Part shown: positions 44,501 to 62,355 of the stretch, piece after piece
Layout: each line of letters begins with the position of its first letter
Position numbering within the stretch: position 1 is the first letter of the stretch
Assembly (NCBI RefSeq): GCF_900172375.1
Contig: NZ_FWFS01000013.1
Location: 25,794-89,793 of the forward strand
Length of the DNA: 64,000 nt
Origin: Aquimixticola soesokkakensis
Lineage (GTDB): Bacteria; Pseudomonadota; Alphaproteobacteria; Rhodobacterales; Rhodobacteraceae
Direction of reading: 5' to 3'
The notes under the pieces: generated by a model
The model's database searches: none
What the model saw: the letters and a program-made list of their open reading frames with translations, nothing else
What the model was told of the DNA's origin: nothing
Made by a program: the position numbers and the translations under genes

Positions 44501-44516
44501 GGGCAAAATCCTGTTC

Positions 44517-44849
44517 TTACAGTGTGATTTCGTGAGTGCCATCTGCCAAAAGCGGCATCTCGCGCACCCAGGTGACATCCGCCATGGTCAGCGCACGATA
44601 GAGATGCGGGAATAGCGCCCCGCCCCGCGAGGGTTCCCATTTCAGGGCCGCGCCCAGGGCGTCGGTGTCAATCCCGAGCAGCATCAGCCCGTCTTCGCCT
44701 GCAAACCATTTGGCGGCGGTTTGCGCGACCTGATCGGGAAGGGACATGTGGATATAGCCATCGGCCAGATCCACGGGCGCGCCCATGGTCGTGCCCGTGG
44801 CCTCGAAAGCCTGCCATTCGGCGGCGCGGAAAATTTTGAGTGCAATCAT
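44517..44849 (-). CDS. DUF952-domain protein
   Basis: A 110-residue protein matching the small DUF952 family: [15 protein letters not shown] at the start, [12 protein letters not shown] in the middle, and FPHLYRAL near the end. Function is unknown; the fold resembles glutathione-related or ADP-ribosyl-like small domains in some reports I cannot verify. It precedes pyrD on the same strand. Confidence 0.88.
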
Positions 44850-45003
44850 GGGGCGTGTGATGCCCGTTGCCCGTTATTTGGTCAAGCGGCTCGCGTCATA
44901 TGGGCGTTACCTTGGGGCAATAGCACAAGGTCCAAGCTCGGCTTTGACTTGATGGTCAATTTTGGTCCAGCATTGCGTCATTCATCAACAAGGGGGGCAG
45001 CCC

Positions 45004-46563
45004 ATGCTCAATCGTATTCTCACTTCCACGGCTGTTCTGGCGCTCAGCGCAGGCGCTGCGGCGGCAGATTATTCGCTGACCATTTTCCACACCAACGATT
45101 TCCACGCCCGTTTCGAACCGGTCTCGGCCTATGATTCGACCTGTTCAGCCGAAGACAACACCGCAGGCGACTGCTTTGGCGGCACGGCGCGCCTTGTGAC
45201 CGCGCTTGAGGCGGCGCGCGCCCAAACCGATAATTCGATCCTTGTGGATGGCGGCGACCAGTTCCAGGGCACGCTGTTTTACACCTATTACAAAGGCAAA
45301 ATGGCTGCCGAGTTCATGAACAAGCTTGGCTATGACGCGATGACCGTGGGCAACCACGAATTCGACGATGGCCCCGAAGTGCTCGCCGGTTTCATGGAGG
45401 CCGTCGATTTCCCCGTTCTGATGTCCAACGCCGATGTGTCGGGCGAGCCGCAATTGGCGGGTAAACTGGCGAAATCCACCGTCATTGAAAAGAACGGCGA
45501 AAAAATCGGCCTGATCGGTTTGACACCGCAAGACACCGACGAGCTGTCCTCGCCGGGCAAGAACGTGATCTTCACCGACCCCTCCCAAGCGGTTCAGGGC
45601 GAAGTTGACAAGCTGAGCGAAGAGGGCGTGAACAAGATCATCGTCCTGTCGCACTCGGGCTACGGCGTGGATCAGGAAGTTGCGGCCAACACCACCGGCG
45701 TCGATGTGATCGTCGGCGGCCACACCAACACCCTGCTGGGCGACATGGAGGGGGCCGAGGGCGCCTATCCGACGATGGTGAACGACACCGCGATTGTGTC
45801 CGCCTATGCCTATGGTAAATTCCTGGGCGAATTGAACGTTGTGTTCGACGACGCGGGCAATATCACCTCGGCCACCGGCGCGCCGCTGATCATGGATGCG
45901 GCCGTGACCGAGGATGAGGCCACCGTGGCCCGCATCACCGAACTGGCCCAGCCGCTGGAAGAAATCCGCTCCAAAGTCGTGGCCGAAACCACCGATATGA
46001 TCGACGGCTCGCGCGAGGTTTGCCGCGCGATGGAATGCCCGATGGGCGATTTGGTTGCGGATGCCATGCTGGACCGCGTGGCGGATCAGGGCGTGGTGGC
46101 TGCCATCACCAATGGCGGCGGGCTGCGCGCGTCGATTGACGCAGGCGAAGTCACGATGGGCGAAGTGCTGACGGTGTTGCCGTTCCAGAACACGCTGGCC
46201 ACCTTCGAAGTGGACGGGGCGGCGGTGAAGGCCGCGCTTGAAAACGGCGTAAGCCAAGTTGAAGAGGGCGGCGGCCGTTTCCCCCAAGTTGCGGGCATGA
46301 CCTTTACCGTCGATCTGACGAAACCCGCAGGCGAGCGGATTTCTGATGTGATGATCGCGGGGGAAGCGCTTGATGAAGCCACATCCTATCTGCTGGTGTC
46401 CAACAACTACGTGCGCAACGGCGGTGACGGCTATTCGATGTTTGTCGATGCCGACAACGTCTATGATTTCGGCCCCGATCTGGCCGATGTGCTGGGCGAC
46501 TACATGATCGCCAATGGTCCGGTTGCACCCTACACCGATGGCCGTATCACCATCGTCAAATAA
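45004..46563 (+). CDS. Periplasmic 5'-nucleotidase / UshA-type metallophosphoesterase
   Basis: A 519-residue secreted protein with a signal peptide (residues 1-21, ending AAAA/DYS). The dimetal site includes IFHTNDFHARFEP, GNHEFDDGPEV and VGGHTNTLL. The C-terminal nucleotide-binding domain has AITNGGGLRASID and NNYVRNGGDGYSMF. It should hydrolyse nucleotides or UDP-sugars in the periplasm, feeding nucleoside salvage. AAGGGGGG precedes the start ATG. It is monocistronic with its own terminator. Confidence 0.94.
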   Translation: MLNRILTSTAVLALSAGAAAADYSLTIFHTNDFHARFEPVSAYDSTCSAEDNTAGDCFGGTARLVTALEAARAQTDNSILVDGGDQFQGTLFYTYYKGKMAAEFMNKLGYDAMTVGNHEFDDGPEVLAGFMEAVDFPVLMSNADVSGEPQLAGKLAKSTVIEKNGEKIGLIGLTPQDTDELSSPGKNVIFTDPSQAVQGEVDKLSEEGVNKIIVLSHSGYGVDQEVAANTTGVDVIVGGHTNTLLGDMEGAEGAYPTMVNDTAIVSAYAYGKFLGELNVVFDDAGNITSATGAPLIMDAAVTEDEATVARITELAQPLEEIRSKVVAETTDMIDGSREVCRAMECPMGDLVADAMLDRVADQGVVAAITNGGGLRASIDAGEVTMGEVLTVLPFQNTLATFEVDGAAVKAALENGVSQVEEGGGRFPQVAGMTFTVDLTKPAGERISDVMIAGEALDEATSYLLVSNNYVRNGGDGYSMFVDADNVYDFGPDLADVLGDYMIANGPVAPYTDGRITIVK

Positions 46564-46587
46564 GCGATCCGGCTTTTGCCAGAAACG

Positions 46588-46615
46588 AGGGGCGTGCCGC
46601 AAGGCGCGCCCTTTT
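46588..46615 (+). terminator. Intrinsic terminator of the nucleotidase gene
   Basis: A stem GGGCGTGCC/GGCGCGCCC (one G-T pair) with loop GCAA and four T residues, about 25 bases past the stop. Confidence 0.75.
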
Positions 46616-46681
46616 GGTGTCGTTGACCCCGCGCGGGGTTGGGGTAGGGTCGGGGTTCACCGCTGCGAAAGAGACTGCGTC

Positions 46682-47101
46682 ATGACTGCACCCGATTTGA
46701 GCCAACTCTACACGCAAACAGCCGCTCAGGCGCATTTGGGGATCAGGCTGGTCGCATGGGAGACGGATTTCGCGCGCTTCGAACTGGCCCTTGAGGCGCA
46801 TCACCTCAATCGTCAGGGGCTGCCCTTTGGTGGCATCCATGCCTCGCTCCTCGATGTGGCGATGGGCTATGCGGGCTGTTTCACCGGCACCATCGACCGC
46901 CCGCAACATGCGCTGACCCTGAATATGAACGTCAGCTTTATCGGGAGGCCGCAGGGGCAGCTTTTGATCGCGGAGGGGCGGCGTGTGGGCGGTGGCAAAA
47001 ACGTGTTCTTTGCCCAGGCCGAGGTAAAGGATGCACAGGGCGCGCTTTTGGCGACGGCGACCGGCACCTTTCGCTATTCGCACCGGGCAGGTGCGAGCTG
47101 A
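46682..47101 (+). CDS. PaaI-family hotdog thioesterase
   Basis: A 139-residue single hotdog domain. LPFGGIHASLLDVAMGYAGC is the active-site helix, and ALTLNMNVSFIGRP the core strand. It is the third PaaI-type thioesterase in 6 kb but is not fused to or coupled with the other two. Its acyl-CoA substrate is unknown. The ATG at 46682 has GAAAGAGA upstream. Confidence 0.88.
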   Translation: MTAPDLSQLYTQTAAQAHLGIRLVAWETDFARFELALEAHHLNRQGLPFGGIHASLLDVAMGYAGCFTGTIDRPQHALTLNMNVSFIGRPQGQLLIAEGRRVGGGKNVFFAQAEVKDAQGALLATATGTFRYSHRAGAS

Positions 47102-47319: not shown

Positions 47320-48366
47320 CTAGATATTTTCGGGCGTGATGATTTCGAAGGGGACCGTGCGATGGATGGTGGCGCCTTGCGCGCCGCTGTTTGCGCCGCT
47401 GTTGAGCACCTCGATCATCGTCGCAACGAGGGTATTTGAGGTCGGTTCCAACGGGTGGGCCAGCGCGGCGGTGATCAACCCTTCCGACAGGCCGCGGCGT
47501 GTTTCGGGCCCGATGTCGCGGCAAATCAGCTTGATGGACTTGCGCCGCGCAACAGGGATTTCACGCAGCGCACGCAGCACCCCCGAAATCCCGCCGCCGA
47601 CAATGAATATGCCCAGCAACTTGTCCTCGGTCTGCAAGAGATCGCGCACCATTTCATAGGCGCGATCCGGTTCTTCGTTGGTCGCCTGGCTTTGGGCAAC
47701 GGTCAGATGCGGCGCATATTCGCGGATGAGCGAGCGGAAACTGGCATCGGCGACATCCTGACATTGATACCGCGGATTCCCCTGGAAAACGGCAATATGG
47801 CCCTCTTCATTGGTCATTTGCGAAATAAGCCATGCCGCCGTGCGCCCGATTTTCCAGTTGTCCGTGCCGACAAAGGCGGCGCGTTCAGGGGCGGATTGAT
47901 CGGTGATATAGGGAATGACGGGGATGCCCCGCTCGGACAGGGTGCGGATCGTCTGGCCGATTTGGGGATGATCGGCCGCGATCAGCGACACCGCGTCACA
48001 GCGTTCACCGAGCGACAAAAGACGCGCAGAGATATTTTCTGGCGTTAACGTATCAACAAACTCAATGACGGGCTCTACGATATCGAGTTGCCGGCGGTGG
48101 CAGGCGGCGGTGATTTCACGGCTGAACAGTTGATAGAGGTCACGCGATGATTGCTGCAACAAAAAACCAAGCCGATAGGTCGGGGCGTTTTTCTTGATCT
48201 GGTCCTCGATGGTGCCGAGCCCGTAAAACCCGATCTTTTCCGCTGCAATTTGAATGCGTTGTGCGGTTGCTGCTTTCACATTCGAGTGGCCGGAAAGCAG
48301 ACGATTAACGGTGGCGATCGAGACACCGGCTTCTTGTGCAAGGCTGGCAATCGTCGGGCGTTTCAT
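47320..48366 (-). CDS. LacI-family transcriptional regulator of the cyclitol-like locus
   Basis: A 348-residue LacI/GalR regulator. The N-terminal HTH is TIASLAQEAGVSIATVNRLLSG, followed by a hinge and a periplasmic-binding-like effector domain (TYRLGFLLQQSSRDLYQ onward). It is divergent from the ABC transporter genes and most likely represses them until a sugar or cyclitol binds. The ATG at 48366 is preferred because AAGG lies 9 bases upstream; the ATG at 48372 is too close to it. Confidence 0.93.
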   Translation of the reverse strand: MKRPTIASLAQEAGVSIATVNRLLSGHSNVKAATAQRIQIAAEKIGFYGLGTIEDQIKKNAPTYRLGFLLQQSSRDLYQLFSREITAACHRRQLDIVEPVIEFVDTLTPENISARLLSLGERCDAVSLIAADHPQIGQTIRTLSERGIPVIPYITDQSAPERAAFVGTDNWKIGRTAAWLISQMTNEEGHIAVFQGNPRYQCQDVADASFRSLIREYAPHLTVAQSQATNEEPDRAYEMVRDLLQTEDKLLGIFIVGGGISGVLRALREIPVARRKSIKLICRDIGPETRRGLSEGLITAALAHPLEPTSNTLVATMIEVLNSGANSGAQGATIHRTVPFEIITPENI

Positions 48367-48397
48367 CGGCATTATCCTTGTATTTCGCGCAAAATCT

Positions 48398-48426
48398 GTA
48401 TCACAATGAATGACACAAAATGATAC
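48398..48426. promoter_or_regulatory. Candidate LacI-type operator
   Basis: GTATCA (48398-48403) and TGATAC (48421-48426) form an inverted repeat with a 17-base centre in the AT-rich divergent region between the regulator and the binding-protein gene. The arms are farther apart than in a classical LacI site, so this is tentative. Confidence 0.4.
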
Positions 48427-48531
48427 TATTGCAAGATTAATAATTTTTTTGTGTTTTTTTAAATCAGGCCATGACGTAGAACCTTGTCATCGAGTCTTCC
48501 GGGGGAGGAAGGCGCTAGGGAGGTGTAACAT

Positions 48532-49506
48532 ATGAATAAATTCAAACGCATAGCCACAAGTTCCGCCGTCGCGATGGTCGCGGCCTGTAGTGCTGGGGCT
48601 GTGATGGCGGCAGATATCTTTGTCGTTGGCGGCAAGCCCGACGATCCTTTTTGGTCGATCGTCAAGCGCGGTGCCGAAGATGCGGGTCTGGTCGCTGAAG
48701 CTCAGGGTGGCTCCGTCACCTGGCTCGGGCCGCAAAACTACGACAATCTCGGCGTCGATGCCGCGGAACTGATCCGTCAGGCGATTGCGCAGGGCGCAGA
48801 TGCCATCGTGGGCCCCGATTGGGTGCCCGATGCGATGGACCCTGCTTTCGAGGCTGTGGTCGATGCCGGCATTCCGCTGATCATTTACAACGCAGGTGGC
48901 ATCGAGGCCGCCGACAAGCTGGGCGCGATGAATTACATCGGCTCGGACGACTATGAAAACGGCAAGGCCGCTGGCACCTATTTTGCCGAGCAGGGCCTCA
49001 CATCGCTGGTCTGCATCAACTCCCTGCCGGGCACGTCCAACATCGAGGACAACTGCTCTGGTATGGTCGATGGGATTACGGCGGCAGGCGGCACTGGCGA
49101 GGTTTTGCCACTGCCCGCGACCTCCTTTGGGAACGCGACGGCCGTGGCGCAGGCGGTGAAGGCCTATTTGCTGCAACATCCTGAAGTCACAGGGATTTAT
49201 ACCATTGGCCAAGGGGATACCAACGCGGCGATCAACGGCGTGATGCAGTCGGGGAAAACCGGCACTGTGCAAGTCGGCGGTCTCAACATGGACGAAACGA
49301 TCCTCAACAGTATCAAGGACGGCAAGCAACTTTTTGCCATTGATCAACAGGGCTACATGCAGGGGTATCTGGCTGTGTCGATCCTGAATGGCTACGTCAA
49401 CTACGGCCTGTCGATCCCGACCCGCGAGATTCTCACCGGTCCGGGCATCGTGGATGCGTCCAACGTTGACAGCACGCTTGAGGGCGTAAAGGCCGGAACC
49501 CGCTAG
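48532..49506 (+). CDS. Periplasmic sugar/cyclitol-binding protein of an ABC importer
   Basis: A 324-residue protein with a signal peptide (residues 1-26, ending AVMA/ADIF). The mature part has the ribose-binding-protein fold of the simple-sugar class: DIFVVGGKPDDPFWSIVKRG at the start and YTIGQGDTNAAINGV near 225. Two cysteines in the segment CINSLPGTSNIEDNC may form a disulfide. It hands the ligand to the two permeases encoded next. GGGAGG lies before the start. The ligand is not identified; the downstream IolG/IolE/IolH-like genes suggest a cyclitol. Confidence 0.93.
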   Translation: MNKFKRIATSSAVAMVAACSAGAVMAADIFVVGGKPDDPFWSIVKRGAEDAGLVAEAQGGSVTWLGPQNYDNLGVDAAELIRQAIAQGADAIVGPDWVPDAMDPAFEAVVDAGIPLIIYNAGGIEAADKLGAMNYIGSDDYENGKAAGTYFAEQGLTSLVCINSLPGTSNIEDNCSGMVDGITAAGGTGEVLPLPATSFGNATAVAQAVKAYLLQHPEVTGIYTIGQGDTNAAINGVMQSGKTGTVQVGGLNMDETILNSIKDGKQLFAIDQQGYMQGYLAVSILNGYVNYGLSIPTREILTGPGIVDASNVDSTLEGVKAGTR

Positions 49507-49570
49507 GGGCTTCTTCTGTCTGCACGCATCCGTTGTGCGGCGCGCCCTCGGGCGGGCCGCCGACAGGACT

Positions 49571-49611
49571 GCGACCGGATCAGTACCCACGGAGGGCAAC
49601 GGTCCGGTCGC
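49571..49611 (+). promoter_or_regulatory. Intergenic hairpin between binding-protein and permease genes
   Basis: GCGACCGGA (49571-49579) pairs with TCCGGTCGC (49603-49611). Hairpins here often protect the upstream mRNA and raise the binding-protein level above that of the permeases. No long T run follows, so it need not stop transcription fully. Confidence 0.55.
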
Positions 49612-49637
49612 TTACTTTTCCAAAGCGAGGAAATTCA

Positions 49638-50690
49638 ATGGCTTCTGCCACTCAACCCCCTGTCACAGCGCCTACAGCACGTCTCGGCCAAGGGATTTCA
49701 AGCGCTTTTGCGCGCCTTGTGAGACGTCCCGAAGCGGGGTCGTTTCTGGGGATGATTGCTGTCTTTGTGTTTTTCGTCCTAGCCGCCGGGCAGGTCTTCG
49801 TATCGCCCGCAGGCTTTGCGAGCTGGCTGAATGTTGCCGCTGAAATCGGCATCGTTGCGCTGCCCATCGGCCTGTTGATGATCGCGGGCGAGTTGGACCT
49901 GTCGATCGGCGCGATCATTCCGGCCTCCTCCCTGACGGTCGCGGTCATCGCGGGGTTTTTCGGCCTGCCGGACGGGGTGGCGGTGATCGCGGCCCTTGGC
50001 CTCGGGCTGGCTGTGGGGTTTGTGAACGGAACGCTGGTCAATCGCACGGCGGTGCCATCGCTGATCATCACCATCGGGACGATGTTTGCGGTCATGGGGC
50101 TGACGCTTGGCCTGTCGGTGATGGTCACCGGCTCGACCTCAGCCTCCCTTCAGCCCGCACCGCAGGCCAAAGCCCTGCTGGGCCAGTTTGTCGGCGGCAT
50201 GTTTCAGATCACGATTTTCTGGTGGCTGGGTTTTGTCGCAGTGGTGGCCTACATCCTGCATGTTTCCCCCATCGGCAACTGGATCTACGCGCTTGGCGGT
50301 GACCGGATTTCGGCGCGCAATGCGGGCATTCCGACCGAACGTCTCACTGTGGGTGTGTTTATGCTTTCAGGACTTTGCGCCGCCTTTGTGGGCGTGAGCC
50401 AGGTCATGGTCTACCAAAGCGCGCAGGTTGCGGGCGGGCAGTCGTTTATTTTCAATTCGATCATGTGTGTGGTGATCGGCGGCGTGTTGTTGACGGGGGG
50501 CTTTGGCTCGGTTCTGGGGATTGTCTTGGGCACCATCACCTTCTCGATGGTCAACCAAGGCATCTATTTCACCAGTTTCGACCCCAATTTCGGCTCGATC
50601 ATCATTGGCGCGCTTCTGCTTGTGGCGGTGCTTATGAACGACACGTTCCGCCAGATGGCACTGTCCTACACCAGCAAGAAAAAGACATGA
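49638..50690 (+). CDS. ABC transporter permease, first of two paralogues
   Basis: A 350-residue membrane protein of the simple-sugar (RbsC-like) permease family. The motif [17 protein letters not shown] marks the family, and NAGIPTERLTVGVFMLSGLCAAFVG the ATPase-contact region. About 8-10 membrane segments are expected. It shares most of its layout with the next gene, so the pair may form a heterodimeric channel. The ATG at 49638 has GCGAGGAAA upstream. Confidence 0.93.
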   Translation: MASATQPPVTAPTARLGQGISSAFARLVRRPEAGSFLGMIAVFVFFVLAAGQVFVSPAGFASWLNVAAEIGIVALPIGLLMIAGELDLSIGAIIPASSLTVAVIAGFFGLPDGVAVIAALGLGLAVGFVNGTLVNRTAVPSLIITIGTMFAVMGLTLGLSVMVTGSTSASLQPAPQAKALLGQFVGGMFQITIFWWLGFVAVVAYILHVSPIGNWIYALGGDRISARNAGIPTERLTVGVFMLSGLCAAFVGVSQVMVYQSAQVAGGQSFIFNSIMCVVIGGVLLTGGFGSVLGIVLGTITFSMVNQGIYFTSFDPNFGSIIIGALLLVAVLMNDTFRQMALSYTSKKKT

Positions 50691-50700
50691 GGGCCGCAAG

Positions 50701-51699
50701 ATGACTTCCTTTTCCTTTGGCGCTTTGCTGCGCCGCCCCGAAGCGGGCGCTGCCCTTAGTCTCATCGCCGTTGCTGCCTTTTTCGTGCTCTTTGGCGGTG
50801 TGAAACTGGGCAATTTCCTGGGGGCGGCAAGCTGGCTTAATTTCGCGGCCAATCTTGGCATCGTGGCGCTCCCTGTGGGACTGTTGATGATCGCGGGCGA
50901 GCTGGACATTTCCATCGGCGCGATGATCCCTGCAGGGTCGATGAGCATCGCGGTGGTGTCGGGCTACTACGGCCAGCCGATCCTCGTCGGCATCGCGGTA
51001 TCGCTCGGGCTTGGGGTGGTTGTGGGGCTGGTGAACGGCTATCTCACCATCAAAACCTCCGTGCCCTCGCTGATCATCACGCTCGCCACCCTTGTTGCCA
51101 TGCAGGGCCTCGTGCTGTCGGCCTCCGTGCTGCTGACGGGCAACGCCTCGGTCGCCCTGGCCGCGCCGGACTGGGCCAAAGCGGTGTTTGGCACGCTTTT
51201 GGGCGGCAGCTACCAGATCATCATCCTGTGGTGGGTGGCGATGGTGGGGGGCTATGCCTTTGTCATCCACATGACCCCCGTCGGGAACTGGTTGTTCGCC
51301 ATGGGCGGCGACAAAACCAGCGCGCGCAACGCGGGCATTCAGACCGACCGCATGACCGTCTGGCTTTTTGTCCTCTCGGCTACATCGGCCAGTTTCGTCG
51401 GGATGTGCGGCGCGATCCTGTTCAATTCGGCGCAGGTCTCGGGGGGGATGAACTACATCTTTAACGCCATCGTGTCGGTGGTGGTGGGGGGTGTTTTGCT
51501 GACGGGGGGCTTTGGCTCTGTGATCGGTATTCTTTTTGGCACGCTGACCTTCGCGGTGGTCAACCAGGGCATCTATTTCACTAATATCGACCGCAACTGG
51601 TCGAGCCTGATCATCGGCGTGATGTTGTTGCTTGCCGTGCTCATGAACAATTCATTTCGCAACATGGCGCTGAGCTACAGCCCGAAGAAAAAGAAGTAA
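50701..51699 (+). CDS. ABC transporter permease, second of two paralogues
   Basis: A 332-residue permease close to the preceding one: both have [18 protein letters not shown] (or a near match), the NYIFN/SFIFNSI segment and [13 protein letters not shown]. It starts 10 bases after the first permease stop with a weak Shine-Dalgarno sequence and ends 10 bases before the ATPase gene. The two likely arose by duplication and form the membrane part of one importer. Confidence 0.93.
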
Positions 51700-51709
51700 G
51701 GAGCGCCAA

Positions 51710-52504
51710 ATGACCCATCCTGTTCTGGAATTGCGCAACGTAAACAAGTCCTTCGGGCCGATTGACGTGCTGCACGATATTTCGCTTTCGGTAAAGGCAG
51801 GCGAAGTGATCTGCCTGCTTGGCGACAATGGTGCGGGAAAATCGACGCTGATCAAAACGCTCGCGGGTGTGCATAAACCCACCTCGGGGGAGATGCTGAT
51901 GGACGGGGCGCCTGTCAGCTTTGCGCGGCCCAAAGATGCGGCGGATCGCGGCATTGCGACCGTTCACCAATTTGGCGGGACCTTTCCGCTGATGACCATC
52001 GGGCGGTCGTTCTTTGTGGGGGTAGAACCCACCAAAGGCTTTGGTCCGTTCAAAATTTTTGACCGCAAGACCGCCAATGCCGTCGCTGTCAAAGCGGTTC
52101 AGGAATTTGGCATTACCCGCATTGATGACGGTGACCGTCTGATTGGCGGGCTGTCGGGCGGGGAGCGCCAGTCGCTGGCCATCGCGCGGGCGCTGCACTT
52201 CGGGGCGCGTGTTTTGATCCTCGACGAGCCCACGGCCGCCCTTGGTGTCAAACAGGCGAGCCATGTGTTGCGCGTCGTGATGGAAGCCAAAAAGCGTGGC
52301 GTTGCGGTGATTTTCATCACCCACCAGGTCACCCACGCGATGGCCGTTGGCGATCACTTCGCGGTGCTCATTCGCGGCGCATTGGCTGCCAGTTTTGCCA
52401 AGGGTGAAAAATCGCGCGACGAAATCACCGATCTGATGGCCGGCGGCGAGGCGCTTGCCGATCTCGATGCGCATCTCGACGACGCAGCCGCCACCGTTTC
52501 CTGA
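51710..52504 (+). CDS. ABC transporter ATP-binding protein, single nucleotide-binding domain
   Basis: A 264-residue ATPase. Walker A is GDNGAGKST at about residues 38-46, the Q-loop is in [11 protein letters not shown], the signature is [15 protein letters not shown], and Walker B is [11 protein letters not shown]. Many sugar importers of this class use a roughly 500-residue double-domain ATPase (RbsA); this one has only one domain, like FrcA of rhizobia, so a homodimer should power the transporter. AAGGAG precedes the start. Confidence 0.95.
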
Positions 52505-52522
52505 CGCCAAAACGCTTTCCTG

Positions 52523-52572
52523 CACGGCCCTTTTCAAGGGGTGATCCATCTTCCGTTGCGGAAGGGGCCGTG
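52523..52572 (+). promoter_or_regulatory. Hairpin between the transporter and catabolic genes
   Basis: CACGGCCC (52523-52530) pairs with GGGCCGTG (52565-52572), with further pairing inside. It could slow transcription or separate the transporter mRNA from the catabolic genes. It lacks a clear T run, so it is not a complete terminator. Confidence 0.5.
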
Positions 52573-52605
52573 TTCTTGCAACCAAATTTCAAAGGCAGTT
52601 GCCCC

Positions 52606-53511
52606 ATGAAAATCGCCATCGACCCCTTTATGCACCGCCATTTGTCCCTTGAGGACATGCCCGCCAAAGTCAAGGAATTGGGCTTTGACTGGATCGAACT
52701 CTCGCCGCGCGGCGATTTCCTCGAATGGTTCAAAGCGCCGCGCGTCTTCCCCGACCGGATCAAAGCGCTGAAAAAGTCGTTGAAAGACAACGAAGTGGGC
52801 ATCGCCTCCCTGCTGCCGATGTATCGCTGGGCCTCCAATGACGAGGCCGAGCGAAAGGCGGCGGTAAAACATTGGAAGCGCGCCATCGAGATTGCGGTCG
52901 AGCTGGAAGTCGACACGATGAACTCGGAATTCGGGCGCGGCCCGCATCCCGACAAGGGGTCGTGCTATTGCTGTCACACCGGTTCGATGATCGAGACCTG
53001 CGAAGACGCATGGTGGCGTTCCATGGACGAACTTGTGCCCATTCTAGAGCGCGAAGGCATCCAGTTGAACGTCGAGCCGCATCCCGAGGATTGGTGCGAA
53101 ACCCTGCAACCCGCGCTCGACATCATCCGCACGGTGAACTCGAAAAGCGTCAAGTTTCTCTACTGCGCGCCCCATACGTTTTACTTTGGCGATGACACCA
53201 AAGCGATGCTGCGCGAGGCCAAAGATGTGCTGGCGCATGTTCATGTGGGGGACACGTTCAACCACAAGGCAAGCTCGGGCCTGCGGTATATTCTCAATCC
53301 TCCGGGCACCAGCGCGCGCGTCCACCAGCACCTCAATATCGGTCAGGGCGAAGTGCCATGGGACGACTTTTTCGGCACGCTGGCCGAGATCGGCTTTGAT
53401 GGCATCATGACCGCCTGCGTCTTTGCCTGGGAAGACAAAGCGGATGAAAGCGGCCATTTCATGCGCGCCGAGATGCAGCGCTACATCGACATGTATTGGG
53501 GCAAAAAATGA
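52606..53511 (+). CDS. IolH-like TIM-barrel protein
   Basis: A 301-residue sugar-phosphate isomerase/epimerase-type TIM barrel. [20 protein letters not shown] at the start, the PHTFYFGDD segment and [18 protein letters not shown] near 230 strongly recall IolH of inositol operons, whose exact reaction is not settled. A cysteine-rich insert, GSCYCCHTG, lies near residue 125 and is not in the IolH form I recall. The start is the ATG at 52606. Its stop overlaps the IolG-like start (ATGA), so they are coupled. Confidence 0.87.
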
Positions 53512-54512
53512 CGCTACGCGTTGGGGTTATCGGCACGGGGATGATCGGTCAGGATCACATCCGCCGTCTCACAAAAGTGCTTTCCGGCGTGACCGTCACC
53601 GGTGTCAGCGACATCGACGCGACCCGCGCCGCCTCTGTCGCCCCTGCCGGGGCACAGGTCTTTGCCACGGCGCAGGATCTGATCGGATCCGACAGCGTGG
53701 ATGGGGTCGTGATCTGCTCGTGGGGACCCTCGCATGAGGACCAGCTTTTGGCCTGTATCGCCGCTGGCAAGCCGGTGTTTTGCGAAAAGCCTCTGGTTAC
53801 TTCGCAAGCTGCAGCCCTCAAGGTCATGGCCGCCGAAGTCGCCTTCGGGCGGCGGTTGGTCCAGGTCGGTTTCATGCGCCGCTTTGACGCCGACTACCGC
53901 CGCCTCAAGGCGGTGATCGACGCAGGCACCCTGGGCGCGCCGCTGATGTACAAATCCGTGCATCGCAACGCGAGCGTGCCGGAGGGGCTTTATACCAGCG
54001 AGATGCCGCTCAATGACACGCTGGTGCATGATGCGGATATTTCGCGCTGGTTGCTGGGCGAAGAGGTCGCAGGCGTCGAAGTGCGCGTGCCCCGCCGCTC
54101 CAGCCGTGGCGGTGATCTGCGCGATCCTGTGGTGGTGTTGCTGACCATGCGGTCGGGCGCCATCGTCGATGTCGAGATTTCGGTAAACGTGGCCTATGGT
54201 TATGACATTCGCGGCGAGGTGAGTTGCGAGACCGGGATTGCGGCGCTGCCCAATCGTCCCGCGACCGTGATCACCGACCAGTTCGGCATCCGCCAAGCCA
54301 TCCCTGAAGATTGGCGCGAGCGCTTTATCGAGGCCTACGATCAGGAGTTTCGCGAGTGGATCGCTGCCGCAGGGCAGGGGACAGCCACGGGTCCCTCCAC
54401 CTGGGATGGCTATGCCGCCACGCTGGTGGCCGATGCCGCTTTGCGGGCGGTGGAAACGGGCGGCTCCGAACCCGTATCCATGTGCGAAAAACCTTCAATT
54501 TACTTTTCATAA
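53508..54512 (+). CDS. Inositol 2-dehydrogenase-like oxidoreductase (IolG-type)
   Basis: A 334-residue Gfo/Idh/MocA oxidoreductase. [18 protein letters not shown] is the NAD-binding loop, CEKPL carries the catalytic lysine, [18 protein letters not shown] follows, and [13 protein letters not shown] holds the aspartate/histidine of the active site. These match IolG, which oxidises myo-inositol (and often other inositols) at C2 to an inosose with NAD+. It is coupled to the IolH-like gene and is probably the first step of the pathway. Confidence 0.88.
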
Positions 54513-54549
54513 CAAAACCCTGATCGGGTTTACCTGAGGAATATGCTCC

Positions 54550-55722
54550 ATGATCAATGGTGAAAGAACGATCCAACGCCCTCTTCGCTGGGGCATGGTG
54601 GGCGGCGGACGCACGGGGCAGGTGGGCTATAAGCACCGCACGGGCGCGCTGCGCGACGGGACCTATCAGCTGGTGGCAGGGGCGTTTGACCTTGATGCCG
54701 CGCGCGGTGTGGATTTCGGCACCAACCTGGGCGTGGCCGAAGAGCGCTGCTATGCCACCTACCAAGCGTTGATTGCGGGCGAAACCGCGCGCGCCGATGG
54801 CGTCGATGTGGTCTCGGTGGCGACGCCCAACTTCACCCATTTCGAAATCACCAAGGCGCTGCTGAATGCCGGCATCCATGTGATCTGCGAAAAGCCTTTG
54901 TTTTTCACCGTGGCCGAATGCGACGAGATTGCCGCGCTGGCGGCAGAAAAGAACCTGATCGTGGGCGTTACCTACGGGTTCACCGGCCATCCGCTGGTCC
55001 ATCAGATGGCCGCGATGGTGGCCAAGGGGATGTTGGGCGACATTCGCATCGTCGATTTGCAATACACCCATGGCTTCAACGCGGGCGACGATGTGGGCGC
55101 GGGCGAGGCGGTGAAATGGCGCACCAACCCTGCAACGGCGGGGGCGACCTTTGTGCTCGGCGATATCGGCACCCATCTCTACTACCTCTCAGAGATCGTC
55201 CTGCCCGAACTGAAAATCGAAAAATTGCTCTGCGATCGCAAGGCCTTCATCGCGACCCGCGCGCCGCTTGAAGATCACGCCACCGTGCTGACGCACTATA
55301 GCAACGGTGCACGCGGGCGGCTTTGGGTGTCCTCTGTCAACGCGGGCAATATGGGCTCGCAGCGCTATCGCTTTGTGGGTTCCAAGGCCTCGGTGGAATG
55401 GTCCGACAGCCATCCCGACCAGCTGCTGTACGACGTGCAGGGCGAACCCAACCAGATCTTGCACCACGGCATGCCCTATCTTGAAGCCGAGGGTCTGAAA
55501 TACGACCGCATGGGCGGCTTGCACACCGAGGGTTTGGGCGATGCGTGGTCCAACATCTACCTTTGGATTGCCCAGGCCATCGACGCAAAAATGCGCGGCG
55601 ACGAGGCGTTTCTGGCCACCCATCACTACCCCGACATCCACGCGGGCACCGAAGGCGTGCGCTGGCTGGAAAACTGCGTGCGCTCGGCCGATGCCGGCAG
55701 CGCGTGGGTCGATTTCGAATAA
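54550..55722 (+). CDS. Second Gfo/Idh/MocA oxidoreductase of the locus
   Basis: A 390-residue oxidoreductase, longer than the first. LRWGMVGGGRTGQVGYKHR is the nucleotide-binding loop, CEKPLFF the catalytic lysine segment, and LGDIGTHLYYL the aspartate/histidine pair. This longer class includes IolG2/scyllo- or other inositol dehydrogenase-like proteins, and also dehydrogenases of 3-keto sugars. It could act on a second position of the ring or on a stereoisomer. AGGA lies upstream of the start. Confidence 0.85.
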   Translation: MINGERTIQRPLRWGMVGGGRTGQVGYKHRTGALRDGTYQLVAGAFDLDAARGVDFGTNLGVAEERCYATYQALIAGETARADGVDVVSVATPNFTHFEITKALLNAGIHVICEKPLFFTVAECDEIAALAAEKNLIVGVTYGFTGHPLVHQMAAMVAKGMLGDIRIVDLQYTHGFNAGDDVGAGEAVKWRTNPATAGATFVLGDIGTHLYYLSEIVLPELKIEKLLCDRKAFIATRAPLEDHATVLTHYSNGARGRLWVSSVNAGNMGSQRYRFVGSKASVEWSDSHPDQLLYDVQGEPNQILHHGMPYLEAEGLKYDRMGGLHTEGLGDAWSNIYLWIAQAIDAKMRGDEAFLATHHYPDIHAGTEGVRWLENCVRSADAGSAWVDFE

Positions 55723-55746
55723 CCCTCTGTTCAGGAGATTGCAGAG

Positions 55747-56688
55747 ATGAAACTTTCCATTTGTACCGATGTGATGGCCGATCTGTCCTTCACCGAAATG
55801 CTCGACAAATGCGTGGCACTTGGTGTCGAGGGCATCGAGATGACTGGCGGTGGCTGGTCGCGCGGGCCGCATTTTCGCGCCGATGAACTGCTGGCCGACA
55901 AGGGCTTGTTGACGTCCAAACTCGCGGAAATCAGTGCGCGCGGGCTTGAAATCGCTGCGCTCAACTGCTCGGCCAACCCGCTGGATCCCGGCGCGATGGG
56001 CGCGCGCCACCTCAAGGAAATGAAAGACACCATCCGGCTTGCGGGCGAGATTGGTGTCAAAAAGATCGTCACCATGTCCGGGCTTCCCGAAGCGGCCCCC
56101 GGCGATACGGTGCCCAACTGGCTGGTCTATACCAAAAGCTGGCCCGATGAGATGCCCGAGCGCGACCGCTACCAATGGGAAGACCGCGCTTTCCCGCTGT
56201 GGCACGATCTGGTGACACATGCAGGTGCCTGCGGCGTCGAGAAAATCGCGCTGGAAAACTTCTCCGCGATGCTTGTGTGGAACCCCGAGACCCTGTTTCG
56301 TCTGCGCGACGAGGTGGGGCCGGTCGTGGGCATGAACCTTGATCCCTCGCATCTGATGTGGATGGGGGCAGACCCGATTGCCTCGGCGCGCGCTCTGGGC
56401 GATGCCATCCACCATGTCCACGGCAAAGACACCCGCATCGAGCGCGGCCTGTCGGATGTCAACGGGCTGCTGGAAACCAAGGAGGTGACCGATGTCGTCA
56501 ACCGCGCGTGGAACTATGTGGCGGTGGGCGCGGGCCATGACCTGAAGTGGTGGAAGGAATTCTTTTCCGTCGTCGGCATGCTTGGCTACAACGGCTGGGT
56601 GTCGCTGGAAATGGAAGATTTCACCATGTCTACCGAGGCGGGAATCCAGTCTTCCATCGACGCGCTCAAAGCCACCATCATCCGGTAA
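55747..56688 (+). CDS. Sugar-phosphate isomerase/epimerase-type TIM-barrel protein
   Basis: A 313-residue AP-endonuclease-2-like TIM barrel. Metal ligands are likely in ALENFSAML, MNLDPSHLMWMG, HVHGKDTRIE and the final SLEMED. It resembles isomerases often found beside Gfo/Idh/MocA dehydrogenases, where they act on keto-sugars or keto-cyclitols. CAGGAG lies upstream of the start. It starts 24 bases after the preceding dehydrogenase gene and six bases before the next gene. Confidence 0.85.
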   Translation: MKLSICTDVMADLSFTEMLDKCVALGVEGIEMTGGGWSRGPHFRADELLADKGLLTSKLAEISARGLEIAALNCSANPLDPGAMGARHLKEMKDTIRLAGEIGVKKIVTMSGLPEAAPGDTVPNWLVYTKSWPDEMPERDRYQWEDRAFPLWHDLVTHAGACGVEKIALENFSAMLVWNPETLFRLRDEVGPVVGMNLDPSHLMWMGADPIASARALGDAIHHVHGKDTRIERGLSDVNGLLETKEVTDVVNRAWNYVAVGAGHDLKWWKEFFSVVGMLGYNGWVSLEMEDFTMSTEAGIQSSIDALKATIIR

Positions 56689-56693
56689 AGCGC

Positions 56694-56978
56694 ATGTACA
56701 AGTTCATCATCACGATTGAACTCAAAGAGGGCGCGCGCGAGAAAATTCTTGCGCGCGCGCCAGCGGTTCAAGCGGCCACGCGCGCGCAAGCGGGCTGTCT
56801 GGCCTATGATTTTTTCACCTGCACCGATGATCCCGACAGATTGGTTTTCGTTGAAGCCTGGGTCGATGAAGCCGCGCATGAGATCCACATGGCCCAGGCC
56901 TATACGCGCGACTTCATCGCCTTTCACACGCCGTTCCATCGCGCGCTGACCTTTGAACGCATCATTCCTGTAGCTTAG
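56694..56978 (+). CDS. Small ABM-fold monooxygenase-like protein
   Basis: A 94-residue ferredoxin-like-fold protein of the antibiotic-biosynthesis-monooxygenase family: MYKFIITIELKEGAREKIL at the start, CLAYDFFTCTDDPDRLVFVEAW in the middle and HMAQAYTRDFIAF after it. Members include quinol monooxygenases, but many are isomerases or have no known activity. Here it sits between two TIM-barrel genes with 5- and 8-base gaps, so it is part of the pathway. Confidence 0.82.
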   Translation: MYKFIITIELKEGAREKILARAPAVQAATRAQAGCLAYDFFTCTDDPDRLVFVEAWVDEAAHEIHMAQAYTRDFIAFHTPFHRALTFERIIPVA

Positions 56979-56986
56979 GACACCCC

Positions 56987-57943
56987 ATGACCACACCGCC
57001 TGTGACCCTGACCTGTGCGCCCTGCTGCTGGGGGGTGGACGACGTGAACAACCCGCATCTTCCGCCTTGGGAAAACGTGCTCGACGAGGCCGCCGCCGCG
57101 GGGTTCGGCGGGCTGGAACTTGGCCCCTATGGCTATATGCCGCTGACGGGGACGCAGGTGGGCGATGCCCTGCGCGCGCGCGGGCTAAGCATCGTGGCGG
57201 GCACGATTTTCGACAATCTGGTGGACTCTGGCAACCGCGACAGTTTGCTTCGCCAAACCCGCGAGATTTGTGCCTTCATCACCGCGCTGCCGCCCCCGCC
57301 CCAACATGCGGGCCAGCGCTTTGCGGCGCCTTTTCTGACGGTCATGGATTGGGGGCATGAGGCGCGCGACTTCGCGGCCGGCCATAGTGCGCGCGCGCGC
57401 CGGCTGGACGCAGCCGCCTGGGCGGGAATGGTGGGCAACATCCGCCAGATTGCGCGCATCGCACGTGAGGAGTTTGGCGTGCGGGCGGTCATTCACCCCC
57501 ATGCGGGCGGGCACATCGAATTTGCCGATGAAATCGCGGCAATCACCCGCGATCTTGCGCCCGAGGAGGCGGGGCTCTGTCTGGACACAGGGCATCTGTT
57601 TTACGCGGGCATGGACCCTGTCGAGGCGCTGTCACGCTACTGGGACCGCGTCGATTACATCCATTTCAAAGATATCGATCCGCAAGTGTTTCGCACCGTG
57701 ATGGGCGAAAAAATCCGCTTTTTTGACGCCTGCGCGCGCGGTGTCATGTGCCCCATCGGGCGCGGGTGCATTGATTATCCAGCCATTCACGCCCTGCTGC
57801 GTGCGCGCGGCTATGGCGGCTATATCACCCTTGAACAGGAACGCGACCCGCGCAATGCGGGGAGTACCCTTGAGGATCTGACGGCCTCACGCCGGTATCT
57901 GGACGGTTGCGGCTTTTCGCCCGCGCCCCGCTTGGACACATGA
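56987..57943 (+). CDS. IolE-like (inosose dehydratase-type) TIM-barrel protein
   Basis: A 318-residue TIM barrel. LTCAPCCWGVDD at the start corresponds to the APIGW segment of IolE. IHPHAGGHIE, CLDTGHLFYAGMDP, YIHFKDIDPQVF, IGRGCIDYPA and LEQERDPRN follow in the same order as in IolE, which dehydrates 2-keto-myo-inositol. The ligand positions for metal look complete. Divergence from IolE is large enough that another keto-cyclitol is possible. AGGA lies upstream of the ATG. Confidence 0.85.
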   Translation: MTTPPVTLTCAPCCWGVDDVNNPHLPPWENVLDEAAAAGFGGLELGPYGYMPLTGTQVGDALRARGLSIVAGTIFDNLVDSGNRDSLLRQTREICAFITALPPPPQHAGQRFAAPFLTVMDWGHEARDFAAGHSARARRLDAAAWAGMVGNIRQIARIAREEFGVRAVIHPHAGGHIEFADEIAAITRDLAPEEAGLCLDTGHLFYAGMDPVEALSRYWDRVDYIHFKDIDPQVFRTVMGEKIRFFDACARGVMCPIGRGCIDYPAIHALLRARGYGGYITLEQERDPRNAGSTLEDLTASRRYLDGCGFSPAPRLDT

Positions 57944-57958
57944 CAAAGGAAACCCGCA

Positions 57959-58738
57959 ATGCGATTTGCCCTGAATCAGAAAACCGCCAAGCCTTTGGCA
58001 TTTGGCCCGTTTTTGGACATGGCCGCGCGGCTTGGATGCCTGGGGGTCGAGCCGCGCACCGATCTGGGGCGCCCGCTTTTTGACGGGATCGATCCGGAGG
58101 CGGCAGGGGACATGGCGCGCGCGCGCGGGCTTGTGCTGTGCGGCCTGTCGGAGGTCTATGGTTTCAACGTGTGGGACAGCACGCGCGAGGCGCAGGTTGT
58201 CGAACTCGTCGCTCAGGCGCAGGCCAGCGGCGCCCGCCACATCAGCCTGATCCCGAGCGTCGATTCCCGCCCGACCATCGCGCTGGTTGAGGCGATGCGC
58301 CACATCGCGCCTTTGGTCGCGCGAACAGGGGTTGAGCCTTTGATCGAGCCAATCGGCTTTGCGACCTCAAGCCTTGCCCGCAAGCGCCCCTTGGTTGCGG
58401 CGATGGATAAGGTGGGCGGCTTTCGCTTGGTGCATGACACTTTCCAACACCGGATTTCCGGCGAGCAGGAGCTGTTTCCCGATCACACGGCTCTGGTGCA
58501 TATTTCGGGGGTCGTTGGGCCGCAGGGTCCTTTGGATGCCACTCAGGACGCGCACCGCGTGCTGCTGGATGCGCAGGACTGCACCGGCGCGCTGGCGCAG
58601 ATATCCGACTTCGAGGCGCGCGGCTACGCGGGGGCCTATTCGGTTGAATGTACCACAGCCGCGGTTTGGCAAAGCCCGACGCTGGAACAGGATCTTGCCG
58701 ACAGCTTTGCCTATCTGCGCGCGCACTGCGCCCCCTGA
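57959..58738 (+). CDS. TIM-barrel isomerase, IolI/MocC-like candidate
   Basis: A 259-residue small TIM barrel. RFALNQKTAKPLAFGPFLD at the start, LIEPIGFATSSL, LVHDTFQHRIS and YSVECTTAAVW are the likely active-site strands. The layout resembles small inosose isomerases (IolI) and the MocC protein of rhizopine catabolism, but I cannot assign a reaction. AAAGGA precedes the ATG. It is the last gene of the plus-strand run and ends convergent to the hydroxyacid dehydrogenase gene. Confidence 0.78.
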   Translation: MRFALNQKTAKPLAFGPFLDMAARLGCLGVEPRTDLGRPLFDGIDPEAAGDMARARGLVLCGLSEVYGFNVWDSTREAQVVELVAQAQASGARHISLIPSVDSRPTIALVEAMRHIAPLVARTGVEPLIEPIGFATSSLARKRPLVAAMDKVGGFRLVHDTFQHRISGEQELFPDHTALVHISGVVGPQGPLDATQDAHRVLLDAQDCTGALAQISDFEARGYAGAYSVECTTAAVWQSPTLEQDLADSFAYLRAHCAP

Positions 58739-58756
58739 ACGACGCCGTCACAGGGG

Positions 58757-59698
58757 CTAAAAGACCTGTGACACCAACGGCTTGTCGTCAAAATATGCGA
58801 TCAGGTTTTCACGCACCAAGCGCGACATCGCCGCGCGGGTCTCGAAGGTGCCGGAGGCGTGGTGGGGAAACAGGGTGACGTTTGCAAGCGCGGTGAGCTG
58901 CTCGTCGGGCGCGGGTTCGTTTTCAAACACATCGAGGCCCGCGCTGGCCAAGTCCCCGTTTTGAAGCGCGGCGATCAGCGCGGGTTCATCGACCACCGTT
59001 CCGCGCGACACATTGATCAGGCTTGCGTTCGGGCCAAGCGCTTGGATCACGTTTTTCGAGACGAGGCCGCGCGTGCCGGCGCCGCCCGACACAGCGAGAA
59101 TGAGAATATCCGACCAGCGGGCCAAGGCGGTCAGATCCGGCTCGAATTTGTAATCGACACCGGCCTTTTGCGTGCGGCCAAAATAGCCCACATTGGCCCC
59201 CATGACGGCACAGCGCGCCGCAATGGCCGCGCCGATCTGGCCAAGCCCGACGATCCCGACATTTTTGCCTTTGACGGAAGATTGAAGCGCAAACATGCCC
59301 TTCGTGCCCCAAGACCCGTCCTGAACATAGGCATGTGCCCTGATCAGATTGCGCCGCGCCGCGAGCATCAACAGGATCGCCGTGTCAGCGACATCATCCG
59401 TCAGGGCAGGGGAGGTGTTGGTCAGCCGGATGCCGCGCGCCTTTAGTGTCTCCGTGTCGAGAGAGTCAAATCCGGCGCTCCCGCAGGCCACAAGTTCGAG
59501 CTGCGCAAGCTCTTCGATCAACGCGCGCTCCAACGGCGTATGCCCGTTTGTCACGATGGCCCGACTTGATTTTGCGGCCGCGCCAAGACCGTCAAGAGCG
59601 CTGCGGGCGTCAAAAGAATGAAGCGTAAACTTCGACGCCAAGGCCGCCATGTCGTCCGGTAGAATCGGATGTAAAACAAGAATATCCGGTTTGATCAT
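58757..59698 (-). CDS. D-isomer-specific 2-hydroxyacid dehydrogenase
   Basis: A 313-residue NAD(P)-dependent dehydrogenase. VGIVGLGQIGAAIAARC is the nucleotide-binding loop; the active site has R in NVSRGTVVDEPAL, E in DVFENEPAPDE and H in LFPHHASG. It resembles glyoxylate/hydroxypyruvate reductases. It is convergent with the cyclitol-like operon and 18 bp from it, so it may handle a hydroxyacid or keto acid from that pathway, but this link is only positional. Confidence 0.88.
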   Translation of the reverse strand: MIKPDILVLHPILPDDMAALASKFTLHSFDARSALDGLGAAAKSSRAIVTNGHTPLERALIEELAQLELVACGSAGFDSLDTETLKARGIRLTNTSPALTDDVADTAILLMLAARRNLIRAHAYVQDGSWGTKGMFALQSSVKGKNVGIVGLGQIGAAIAARCAVMGANVGYFGRTQKAGVDYKFEPDLTALARWSDILILAVSGGAGTRGLVSKNVIQALGPNASLINVSRGTVVDEPALIAALQNGDLASAGLDVFENEPAPDEQLTALANVTLFPHHASGTFETRAAMSRLVRENLIAYFDDKPLVSQVF

Positions 59699-61121: not shown

Positions 61122-61257
61122 GATGTGCTCCTGTAACCGATTGGTGTGGCTCTGGGGCCAAGTCTAGGCGGCAGCGGCGATTGTGCCAAGCGCCTTGCGC
61201 GACAGGCCCGAGCCGCGTAGAAGTCCGCGCAATTCTGGATCAAAAAGGGGCCGTGTC

Positions 61258-62355
61258 ATGGGTTTCAAAATGGGCATCGTGGGTCTGCCGAATGTTGGCA
61301 AATCGACCCTTTTCAACGCGCTGACCAAAACGGCTGCCGCGCAGGCCGCCAACTTTCCGTTCTGCACCATCGAGCCGAATGTGGGCGATGTGGCCGTGCC
61401 CGACGCGCGCCTCGACACGCTTGCCCAGATCGCCGGATCAAAGCAGATCATCCCCACGCGCATGACCTTCGTGGACATCGCAGGTCTCGTCAAAGGGGCC
61501 TCCAAAGGCGAGGGGCTGGGCAACCAGTTCCTTGCAAACATTCGCGAATGTGATGCCATCGCCCATGTGCTGCGCTGCTTTGAGGATAAGGACGTGACCC
61601 ATGTCGAGGGCCGCGTCGATCCCATCGAGGATGCGATCACCATCGAAATGGAACTGATGTTTTCTGACATGGAAAGTATCGAAAAGCGGCGTGCCAACCT
61701 CGTGCGCAAGCTGAAAGGCGGCGACAAAGAGGCCAAGCTGCAGGACGACTTGCTGGCCCGTGCGCAGGCGGCCCTGGAAGAGGGCAAGCCCGCTCGCACG
61801 GTGGACATCGCGCCGGACGAGGAAAAGCAGTGGAAGATGCTGCAACTGCTCACCCAAAAGCCGATCCTCTATGTCTGCAACGTCGATGAGGACCAGGCGG
61901 GCAGTGGCAATGCGCTGTCGGACAAGGTCGCCGCGATGGCTGCCGAACAGGGGGCCGCTGCGGTGGTGATTTCCGCCAAGATCGAGGAAGAGATCAGCCA
62001 GCTCGAGCCCGAAGAAGCCGAAATGTTCCTTGGAGAATTGGGGCTGGAAGAGGCCGGTTTGGACCGCCTGATCCGTGCAGGCTACGCGCTTTTGAAGCTC
62101 GAGACCTATTTCACGGTTGGCCCCAAAGAGGCCCGCGCATGGACGATCAAGGCGGGCACGCAGGCCCCGCAAGCCGCCGGCGTGATCCACGGCGATTTCG
62201 AGCGCGGCTTTATCCGTGCCGAAACGATTGCCTATGACGACTACGTTGCCAGCAAGGGCGAGTCGGGCGCGCGCGATGCGGGTAAACTGCGCGCCGAGGG
62301 CAAGGCCTACACCGTCAAAGACGGCGACGTCTTGCACTTCCTGTTCAACACCTAA
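61258..62355 (+). CDS. ychF: Redox-regulated ATPase YchF
   Basis: A 365-residue Obg-family P-loop NTPase of the usual length. G1 is VGLPNVGKST; the G4 motif is NVDED in place of NKxD, which explains its preference for ATP over GTP. A coiled-coil insertion follows, then the C-terminal TGS domain. It binds ribosomes and affects oxidative-stress response. The chosen ATG at 61258 follows AAAAAGGGG. It is alone and ends at a hairpin terminator. Confidence 0.96.
   Translation: MGFKMGIVGLPNVGKSTLFNALTKTAAAQAANFPFCTIEPNVGDVAVPDARLDTLAQIAGSKQIIPTRMTFVDIAGLVKGASKGEGLGNQFLANIRECDAIAHVLRCFEDKDVTHVEGRVDPIEDAITIEMELMFSDMESIEKRRANLVRKLKGGDKEAKLQDDLLARAQAALEEGKPARTVDIAPDEEKQWKMLQLLTQKPILYVCNVDEDQAGSGNALSDKVAAMAAEQGAAAVVISAKIEEEISQLEPEEAEMFLGELGLEEAGLDRLIRAGYALLKLETYFTVGPKEARAWTIKAGTQAPQAAGVIHGDFERGFIRAETIAYDDYVASKGESGARDAGKLRAEGKAYTVKDGDVLHFLFNT

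Follow-up and report, generated by a model that had tools for sequence, protein, structure and literature searches.

Gene Content and Organization of the Locus

The DNA analyzed here (hereafter the window) is a stretch of 64,000 nucleotides from the Aquimixticola soesokkakensis genome (C22:25794-89793; the genome comprises 3.49 Mb in 32 contigs and is 98.87% complete). Reading frames and matches to family models revealed a block at 47320-58738, composed of a LacI gene, a four-gene ATP-binding cassette (ABC) importer, and seven catabolic genes (Table 1). The catabolic genes encode four AP_endonuc_2 (TIM-barrel) proteins, named TIM1 to TIM4, two Gfo/Idh/MocA dehydrogenases, Gfo1 and Gfo2, and one ABM-domain protein. 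The operon proper comprises 11 genes, from the binding-protein gene (48532) to the end of the TIM4 gene (58738), and lacI is transcribed divergently from it. Later ATG starts were preferred, by inference, for permease A, TIM1, Gfo1, and the ABM protein. With these starts the spacing is operon-like: the TIM1 and Gfo1 genes overlap by 4 bases, and gaps of 2, 8, 10, 10, 15, 24, and 37 bases were found, together with wider gaps after the binding-protein gene (131 bases) and after the ATPase gene (101 bases).

An earlier note on this DNA had grouped the regulator, importer, and catabolic genes into one block, and the frames, the families, the spacing, and the recurrence of the order in other genomes all bear this out. 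As dozens of other genomes share the gene order, a chance arrangement is excluded. The same note regarded a D-2-hydroxyacid dehydrogenase gene, 18 bases downstream, as closing the block. This gene is convergent to the operon, has a match in 3 of the 80 related loci described below (29-56% identity), and lies next to the block in none of them; it was thus left out of the operon. The flanks of the block (window 43427-47101 and 61183-62355) are of the housekeeping type, with genes for dihydroorotate dehydrogenase, 5'-nucleotidase, a hotdog thioesterase, and YchF.

Table 1. Features of the locus, with positions in the window, strand, and the matches or motifs on which each assignment is based.
Feature	Position	Strand	Basis
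LacI-family regulator	47320-48372	-	PF00356, PF13407
Predicted LacI operator, GTATCA-N7-TGACAC-N4-TGATAC	48398-48426	.	Motif from 46 LacI-SBP (substrate-binding protein) spacers, pattern scan
Periplasmic substrate-binding protein	48532-49506	+	PF13407; NF052284, 185.5 bits; nearest solved chain 4ru1
ABC permease A	49638-50690	+	PF02653; start inferred, open frame from 49533
ABC permease B	50701-51699	+	PF02653
Single-domain ABC ATPase	51710-52504	+	PF00005
TIM1, IolH-like	52606-53511	+	PF01261; relatives named IolH; start inferred, open frame from 52570
Gfo1, IolG-like, predicted myo-/D-chiro-inositol dehydrogenase	53508-54512	+	NF052679, motifs; start inferred
Gfo2, second Gfo/Idh/MocA dehydrogenase	54550-55722	+	PF01408; 7d5m; K115-D205-H209
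TIM2, predicted keto-inositol isomerase or epimerase	55747-56688	+	
ABM-fold protein	56691-56978	+	PF03992; start inferred, open frame from 56547
TIM3, IolE-like, predicted inosose dehydratase	56987-57943	+	TIGR04379, 157.2 bits; H170-x-H172, D200, H226, E283
TIM4, IolI-like, predicted keto-inositol isomerase	57959-58738	+	PF01261; solved relatives 4hgx, 2q02
D-2-hydroxyacid dehydrogenase	58757-59698	-	Convergent to the operon, 18 bases downstream

Related Loci in Other Genomes

A TIM2 scan of one genome per species returned 304 relatives, and the best 80 by TIM2 similarity, from rhizobia, marine Rhodobacteraceae, and some gammaproteobacteria, were kept as related loci. Neighbors were counted by tblastn up to 9 kb from TIM2, the minimum identity being set at 40-50%; many loci are cut by contig ends. 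IolH was found in 71 of the 80 loci, Gfo2 in 68, the ATPase in 67, permease B in 65, the binding protein in 62, LacI in 59, IolG in 45, the IolE-like protein in 41, IolC in 41, permease A in 33, IolD in 33, the ABM protein in 29, IolB in 24, and the IolI-like protein in 17; the counts of the two permeases are only softly separable because both proteins resemble each other. At least one of iolC and iolD was present in 43 loci, of which 34 belong to the 61 loci whose downstream sequence reaches 6 kb or more and 9 to the 19 loci with a shorter one; typically these genes sit between the IolE-like and IolI-like genes. The full order IolH-IolG-Gfo2-TIM2-ABM-IolE-IolC-IolD-IolB-IolI was observed in four loci (L030, L048, L084, and L092), and the order of the window, which is devoid of IolC-IolD-IolB, recurs in one other locus, L077 from Mangrovicoccus ximenensis. 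On a Rhizobium ruizarguesonis plasmid record, lacI, the ABC genes, IolH, Gfo2, and TIM2 are followed directly by annotated iolC and iolD. Across the related loci, conservation within the block is highest for TIM2, IolH, and Gfo2 (median identity of 88, 87, and 86%, respectively).

Gfo2 or IolG was found near TIM2 in 78 of the 80 loci, the exceptions being L055, which starts at TIM2, and L069, which has an IolG of the type encoded on contig C23. Smaller arrangements occur on plasmids. Gfo2 and TIM2 stand without importer or iol genes on a Pantoea plasmid, next to genes for LacI and for a further TIM-barrel protein, and on a Priestia plasmid, next to genes for an AraC-type protein and a sugar porter; yfiF-yfiI of Bacillus subtilis may be relatives of this Priestia set. 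On a Klebsiella plasmid, TIM2 is accompanied by LacI and porter genes and by an IolG-type dehydrogenase, and a Haloarcula plasmid carries a 37% relative of TIM2 amid other genes. A TIM2 match was obtained on 218 plasmid records, 76 of which have a relative at 80-90% identity, and the best among the matches listed are rhizobial. Because Gfo2 or IolG accompanies TIM2 in nearly all loci and is paired with it on the minimal plasmids, TIM2 is read as acting on a keto-inositol.

In a sample chosen independently of the locus (345 genomes of the host family; E-values of 1e-60 for TIM2, 1e-100 for IolD, and 1e-110 for Gfo2, or better), TIM2 relatives were detected in 21 genomes, IolD in 184, and both in 19 (Fisher p 4e-4). 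IolD was present in 16 of the 16 genomes whose best TIM2 relative is distant (41-48%), versus three of the five with a close orthologue (86-100%). These three are G245 and G302, in which iolC-iolD-iolB are adjacent, and the genome of the window; in both genomes that lack an IolD match, the locus hits a contig end, just behind TIM3 in G063 and 165 bases into iolC in G282. Close Gfo2 orthologues were found in three genomes, with TIM2 beside each, and two further genomes with a close TIM2 have IolG instead.

TIM2 relatives with 37-47% identity and the E-x-H site make up a second subfamily. In L103 (5925-6881), L108 (5925-6881), and L131 (6690-7616), a gene of this kind is preceded by genes for LacI, a binding protein, permease, ATPase, and dehydrogenase; in the loci L039, L103, and L108 it lies just upstream of a TIM2 gene of the first kind. 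In a related operon, seen in L109 (3021-3971) and L127 (8253-13609), two binding-protein genes with permeases precede one ATPase gene.

Inositol Genes Elsewhere in the Genome

In a profile search of the genome contigs, iolC (416 bits), iolD (873 bits), and iolB (318 bits), all above cut-off, were found to adjoin on contig C10 at 159-164 kb. No iolB, iolC, or iolD match was obtained on contig C22, where the cut-off of the iolE model was also unreached. A second iolD (802 bits) lies on C27, four IolE proteins scored above cut-off (one on C27, two on C23, one on C15), and a methylmalonate-semialdehyde dehydrogenase (MMSDH, IolA-type) did so on C12. The locus has an IolE-like gene only, and thus falls outside the definition of an inositol catabolic gene cluster given in PMC9430895, namely at least three of iolB, iolC, iolD, and iolE in one determinant. 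The C10 iolC frame, of 677 aa, can be aligned with a 640-aa iolC along ~630 residues, and its length would fit the IolC-DUF2090 kinase-aldolase fusions described in PMC9007349.

Inositol-type genes occur in at least four other sets of the genome, on C10, C27, C23, and C15 (L023, L024, L025, and L027, respectively); each of the C27, C23, and C15 sets includes ABC genes, IolE, and dehydrogenases of its own. The C23 set is a sister of that of the window, with identities of 82.6% for IolH, 47.6% for IolG, 35% for the IolI-like protein, and 49% for the binding protein.

Predicted Enzymes of the Block

Gfo1 matched the IolG model NF052679 with 364.5 bits, below the curated cut-off of 540, and thus falls short of that family. 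Its best solved relatives are inositol 2-dehydrogenase/D-chiro-inositol 3-dehydrogenases. The NAD+-dependent myo-/D-chiro-inositol dehydrogenase group is described in PMC9603128 as being marked by motif III GF(M/N)RR(Y/F)D, motif V YGY, and a catalytic K-D-H; Gfo1 carries GFMRRFD, YGY, and K-D-H, and is thus predicted to be a member of this group. In an alignment of 52 sequences, including that of the window, YGY was conserved in 49 and K-D-H in 50. Gfo2 is identical to 7d5m at 212 of 389 residues, and its catalytic K115-D205-H209 was kept in all 69 aligned sequences. The chains 7d5m and 7d5n may represent an Azotobacter inositol dehydrogenase homologue.

TIM2 has a two-glutamate site, with E170-x-F172 in 84 of 84 sequences of at least 59% identity; its relatives at 37-47% identity have E-x-H (9/9). 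The pattern of the AtOGE/CGE-type 3-keto-glycoside eliminases, a metal residue on strand 5 followed at +2 by the catalytic His, is thus broken in TIM2 by a Phe, and it is present in TIM3 (HxH) and TIM1 (ExH). The two-glutamate site and the Phe at the place of the eliminases' catalytic His suggest that TIM2 is a keto-inositol isomerase or epimerase. The removal of a methyl or sugar group by beta-elimination, an idea drawn from a structural match to the hydratase AtHYD (see below), is set back by the missing His.

TIM3 reached 157.2 bits with the IolE model TIGR04379, below the curated cut-off of 290 required for IolE. It keeps 40 of the 69 columns that are invariant in the four canonical IolE proteins of the genome, including H170, H172, D200, H203, H226, K228, and E283, and the site H170-x-H172, D200, H226, E283 was found in all 44 aligned sequences. 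TIM4 had no match in the NCBIfam search of the block proteins, and its only solved relatives found were 4hgx and 2q02 (84.3 bits each), the latter presumably a protein of the Salmonella iol region. TIM4 also has a two-glutamate site, its residues E130, D160, and E230 being present in 18 of 18 aligned sequences. The searches of this analysis also gave 3dx5 (AsbF), presumably a dehydroshikimate dehydratase, as a weak match.

TIM1 matched no IolH model of NCBIfam; it was assigned to IolH on the basis of close relatives that carry the source name "myo-inositol catabolism protein IolH". At the place of the metal-binding Asp of the barrel family, TIM1 proteins have Cys (64/69) or Ile (5/69), and at the place of the strand-8 Glu they have Cys (69/69), which makes an odd site. 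The family of the ABM-fold protein is narrow, with 103 proteins including itself at the sensitivity of the protein database search used, and five members apparently come from related loci (L048, L057, L058, L077, and L084).

Regulator, Operator, and Importer

The operator motif (width 20) was derived from the spacer DNA of 46 LacI-SBP intergenic regions and had a log-likelihood of 196.1, versus 35.4 for shuffled sequence, although the spacers are related and shuffling ignores kinship. A pattern scan of the whole genome found the palindrome in one other place only, within an aldo/keto reductase frame. The only strong NCBIfam match of the binding protein is the rhizopine-binding family NF052284, to which it aligns over nearly the whole model with less than half of the 420-bit cut-off, and it was therefore not assigned to that family. 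The ligand of its nearest solved chain, 4ru1, may be myo-inositol.

Discussion

Since iolC and iolD belong to the same operon in related loci, and iolC-iolD-iolB are found on C10 here, the locus is read as a split form of the iol operon, containing a conserved, uncharacterized Gfo2-TIM2 pair, and thus as a variant of the known pathway. It is probable (about 0.7) that the eleven-gene operon imports, oxidizes, isomerizes, and dehydrates an inositol isomer, whose product would enter the classical pathway through iolC, iolD, and iolB in trans. The earlier note had proposed an inositol or other cyclitol as the substrate, from a resemblance of three proteins to IolG, IolE, and IolH. This resemblance was recovered for Gfo1, TIM3, and TIM1, and the substrate is supported by iolC, iolD, and iolB in the operon of related loci and by the inositol-dehydrogenase motifs of Gfo1. 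The note had also suspected an undescribed route from an unfamiliar layout, which arises because iolC-iolD-iolB are absent from the locus and placed on C10. The cyclitol part of its interpretation is thus supported, and the undescribed route is not, nor is closure by the hydroxyacid dehydrogenase.

In the proposed mechanism, the ABC importer would take up the cyclitol, and Gfo1 (myo-/D-chiro-inositol type) and Gfo2 would oxidize one ring hydroxyl with NAD+. The ketone would be moved or epimerized by TIM2 and TIM4, through their two-glutamate sites, to give 2-keto-myo-inositol, which TIM3, the IolE relative with the HxH site, would dehydrate to trihydroxycyclohexanedione. IolD, IolB, and IolC, encoded on C10, and the IolA-type dehydrogenase encoded on C12 would finish the route. 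LacI, acting at the palindrome (48398-48416), may be the repressor of the operon, and the ABM protein might, as a guess, be a tautomerase or a scavenger for the reactive dione.

Several points weigh against this interpretation, however. The scores of Gfo1, TIM3, and the binding protein all lie below the curated cut-offs, and Gfo2 lacks the published myo-/D-chiro-inositol markers. A keto-sugar hydratase, AtHYD, is among the solved folds nearest to the predicted model of TIM2, and the high conservation of TIM2 partly reflects selection, because the 80 loci were picked by TIM2 similarity. Among the 61 loci that extend 6 kb or more downstream, 27 have neither iolC nor iolD nearby, and the distant TIM2 subfamily accounts for the association of TIM2 with IolD in the sample from the host family. 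Finally, a scan of the other inositol clusters and of the whole genome did not find the operator palindrome at the C10 iolC-iolD-iolB genes, so that shared control of both gene sets is not supported.

A more tentative proposal is an undescribed module of two enzymes, Gfo2 and TIM2, for the use of a rarer inositol isomer or derivative. The product of Gfo2 might be a keto-inositol that is not formed by IolG, and TIM2 might be a new keto-inositol epimerase, arisen from a hydratase/eliminase-type barrel by a His-to-Phe change; the module could feed into IolD-dependent breakdown, whether the core iol genes stand in the operon or at another place in the genome. A search of the open-licence literature, in which the sequence of the pair itself was not used as a query, returned no report of a Gfo2-TIM2 pair, and the portions of the literature on these pathways that were consulted do not explain Gfo2, TIM2, the ABM protein, or IolH.

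Alternatively, the locus could be an ordinary, redundant myo-inositol operon, with Gfo2, TIM2, and TIM4 as spare copies serving no rarer isomer. The genome does hold several other inositol-type clusters, and Corynebacterium glutamicum is described as having seven annotated inositol dehydrogenases, of which four are active with overlapping substrates (PMC9603128). Nevertheless, Gfo2 and TIM2 are kept together on the Pantoea and Priestia plasmids where the rest is missing, and, with IolH, they are the most conserved members of the block, even if this ranking is biased by the choice of loci; we therefore regard mere redundancy as unlikely. Much less credence is given to a self-contained cyclitol route independent of IolD, IolB, and IolC, as the earlier note suggested. 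Such a route would account for a contig devoid of these three genes, and for the 27 loci mentioned above, but iolC or iolD shares the operon in 43 of the 80 loci, the core genes are available in trans here, and the family model searches showed no substitute ring-opening enzyme among the genes of the block.

The locus may also be compared with known systems. It resembles the classical iol pathway (iolG, iolE, iolD, iolB, iolC, iolA) by its IolG-, IolE-, IolH-, and IolI-like proteins and by iolC, iolD, and iolB, in the operon of related genomes and in trans here; unlike that pathway, it lacks iolB, iolC, and iolD and has a two-permease sugar-type ABC importer, LacI, and the additional Gfo2, TIM2, and ABM protein. 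As in oxiC-cg3390-oxiD-oxiE of C. glutamicum, compared by its published description (PMC9603128), inositol dehydrogenases stand beside a putative sugar phosphate isomerase gene; OxiC is described there as lacking a catalytic Asp, whereas the K-D-H of Gfo2 is intact. The 3-keto-glucoside operon of Agrobacterium tumefaciens, as presented in PMC10628242, likewise combines two oxidoreductases with two TIM-barrel proteins, AtOGE and AtHYD; the TIM2 model resembles AtHYD, and the HxH of AtOGE is also found in TIM3. A 3-keto-glycoside or levoglucosan-type pathway, in which one dehydrogenase would oxidize a sugar ring, the TIM barrels would eliminate and hydrate, and a second dehydrogenase would reduce the ketosugar, is nevertheless highly improbable in view of the linkage to iolC-iolD-iolB in related loci, the inositol dehydrogenase motifs of Gfo1, and the Phe of TIM2 at the place of the catalytic His of AtOGE. 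A locus for the uptake and breakdown of rhizopine (methyl-scyllo-inosamine) has a negligible chance of being correct: the rhizopine-binding family is the only strong NCBIfam match of the binding protein, and rhizopine use requires the inositol pathway according to a reference title in PMC9430895, but the score is far below the cut-off and the block contains no aminotransferase or oxygenase-type gene, moc genes not having been searched for across the genome.

Under the reading of a split iol operon, the front end for inositol use is encoded apart from the core genes. Conversion of other inositol isomers to 2-keto-myo-inositol has been ascribed to IolI in Bacillus subtilis, and the corresponding enzyme of C. 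glutamicum was still being sought in 2022, as described in PMC9603128. The locus thus points to a concrete question, namely which isomerases convert other inositol isomers to 2-keto-myo-inositol, for which TIM2 and TIM4 are candidates.

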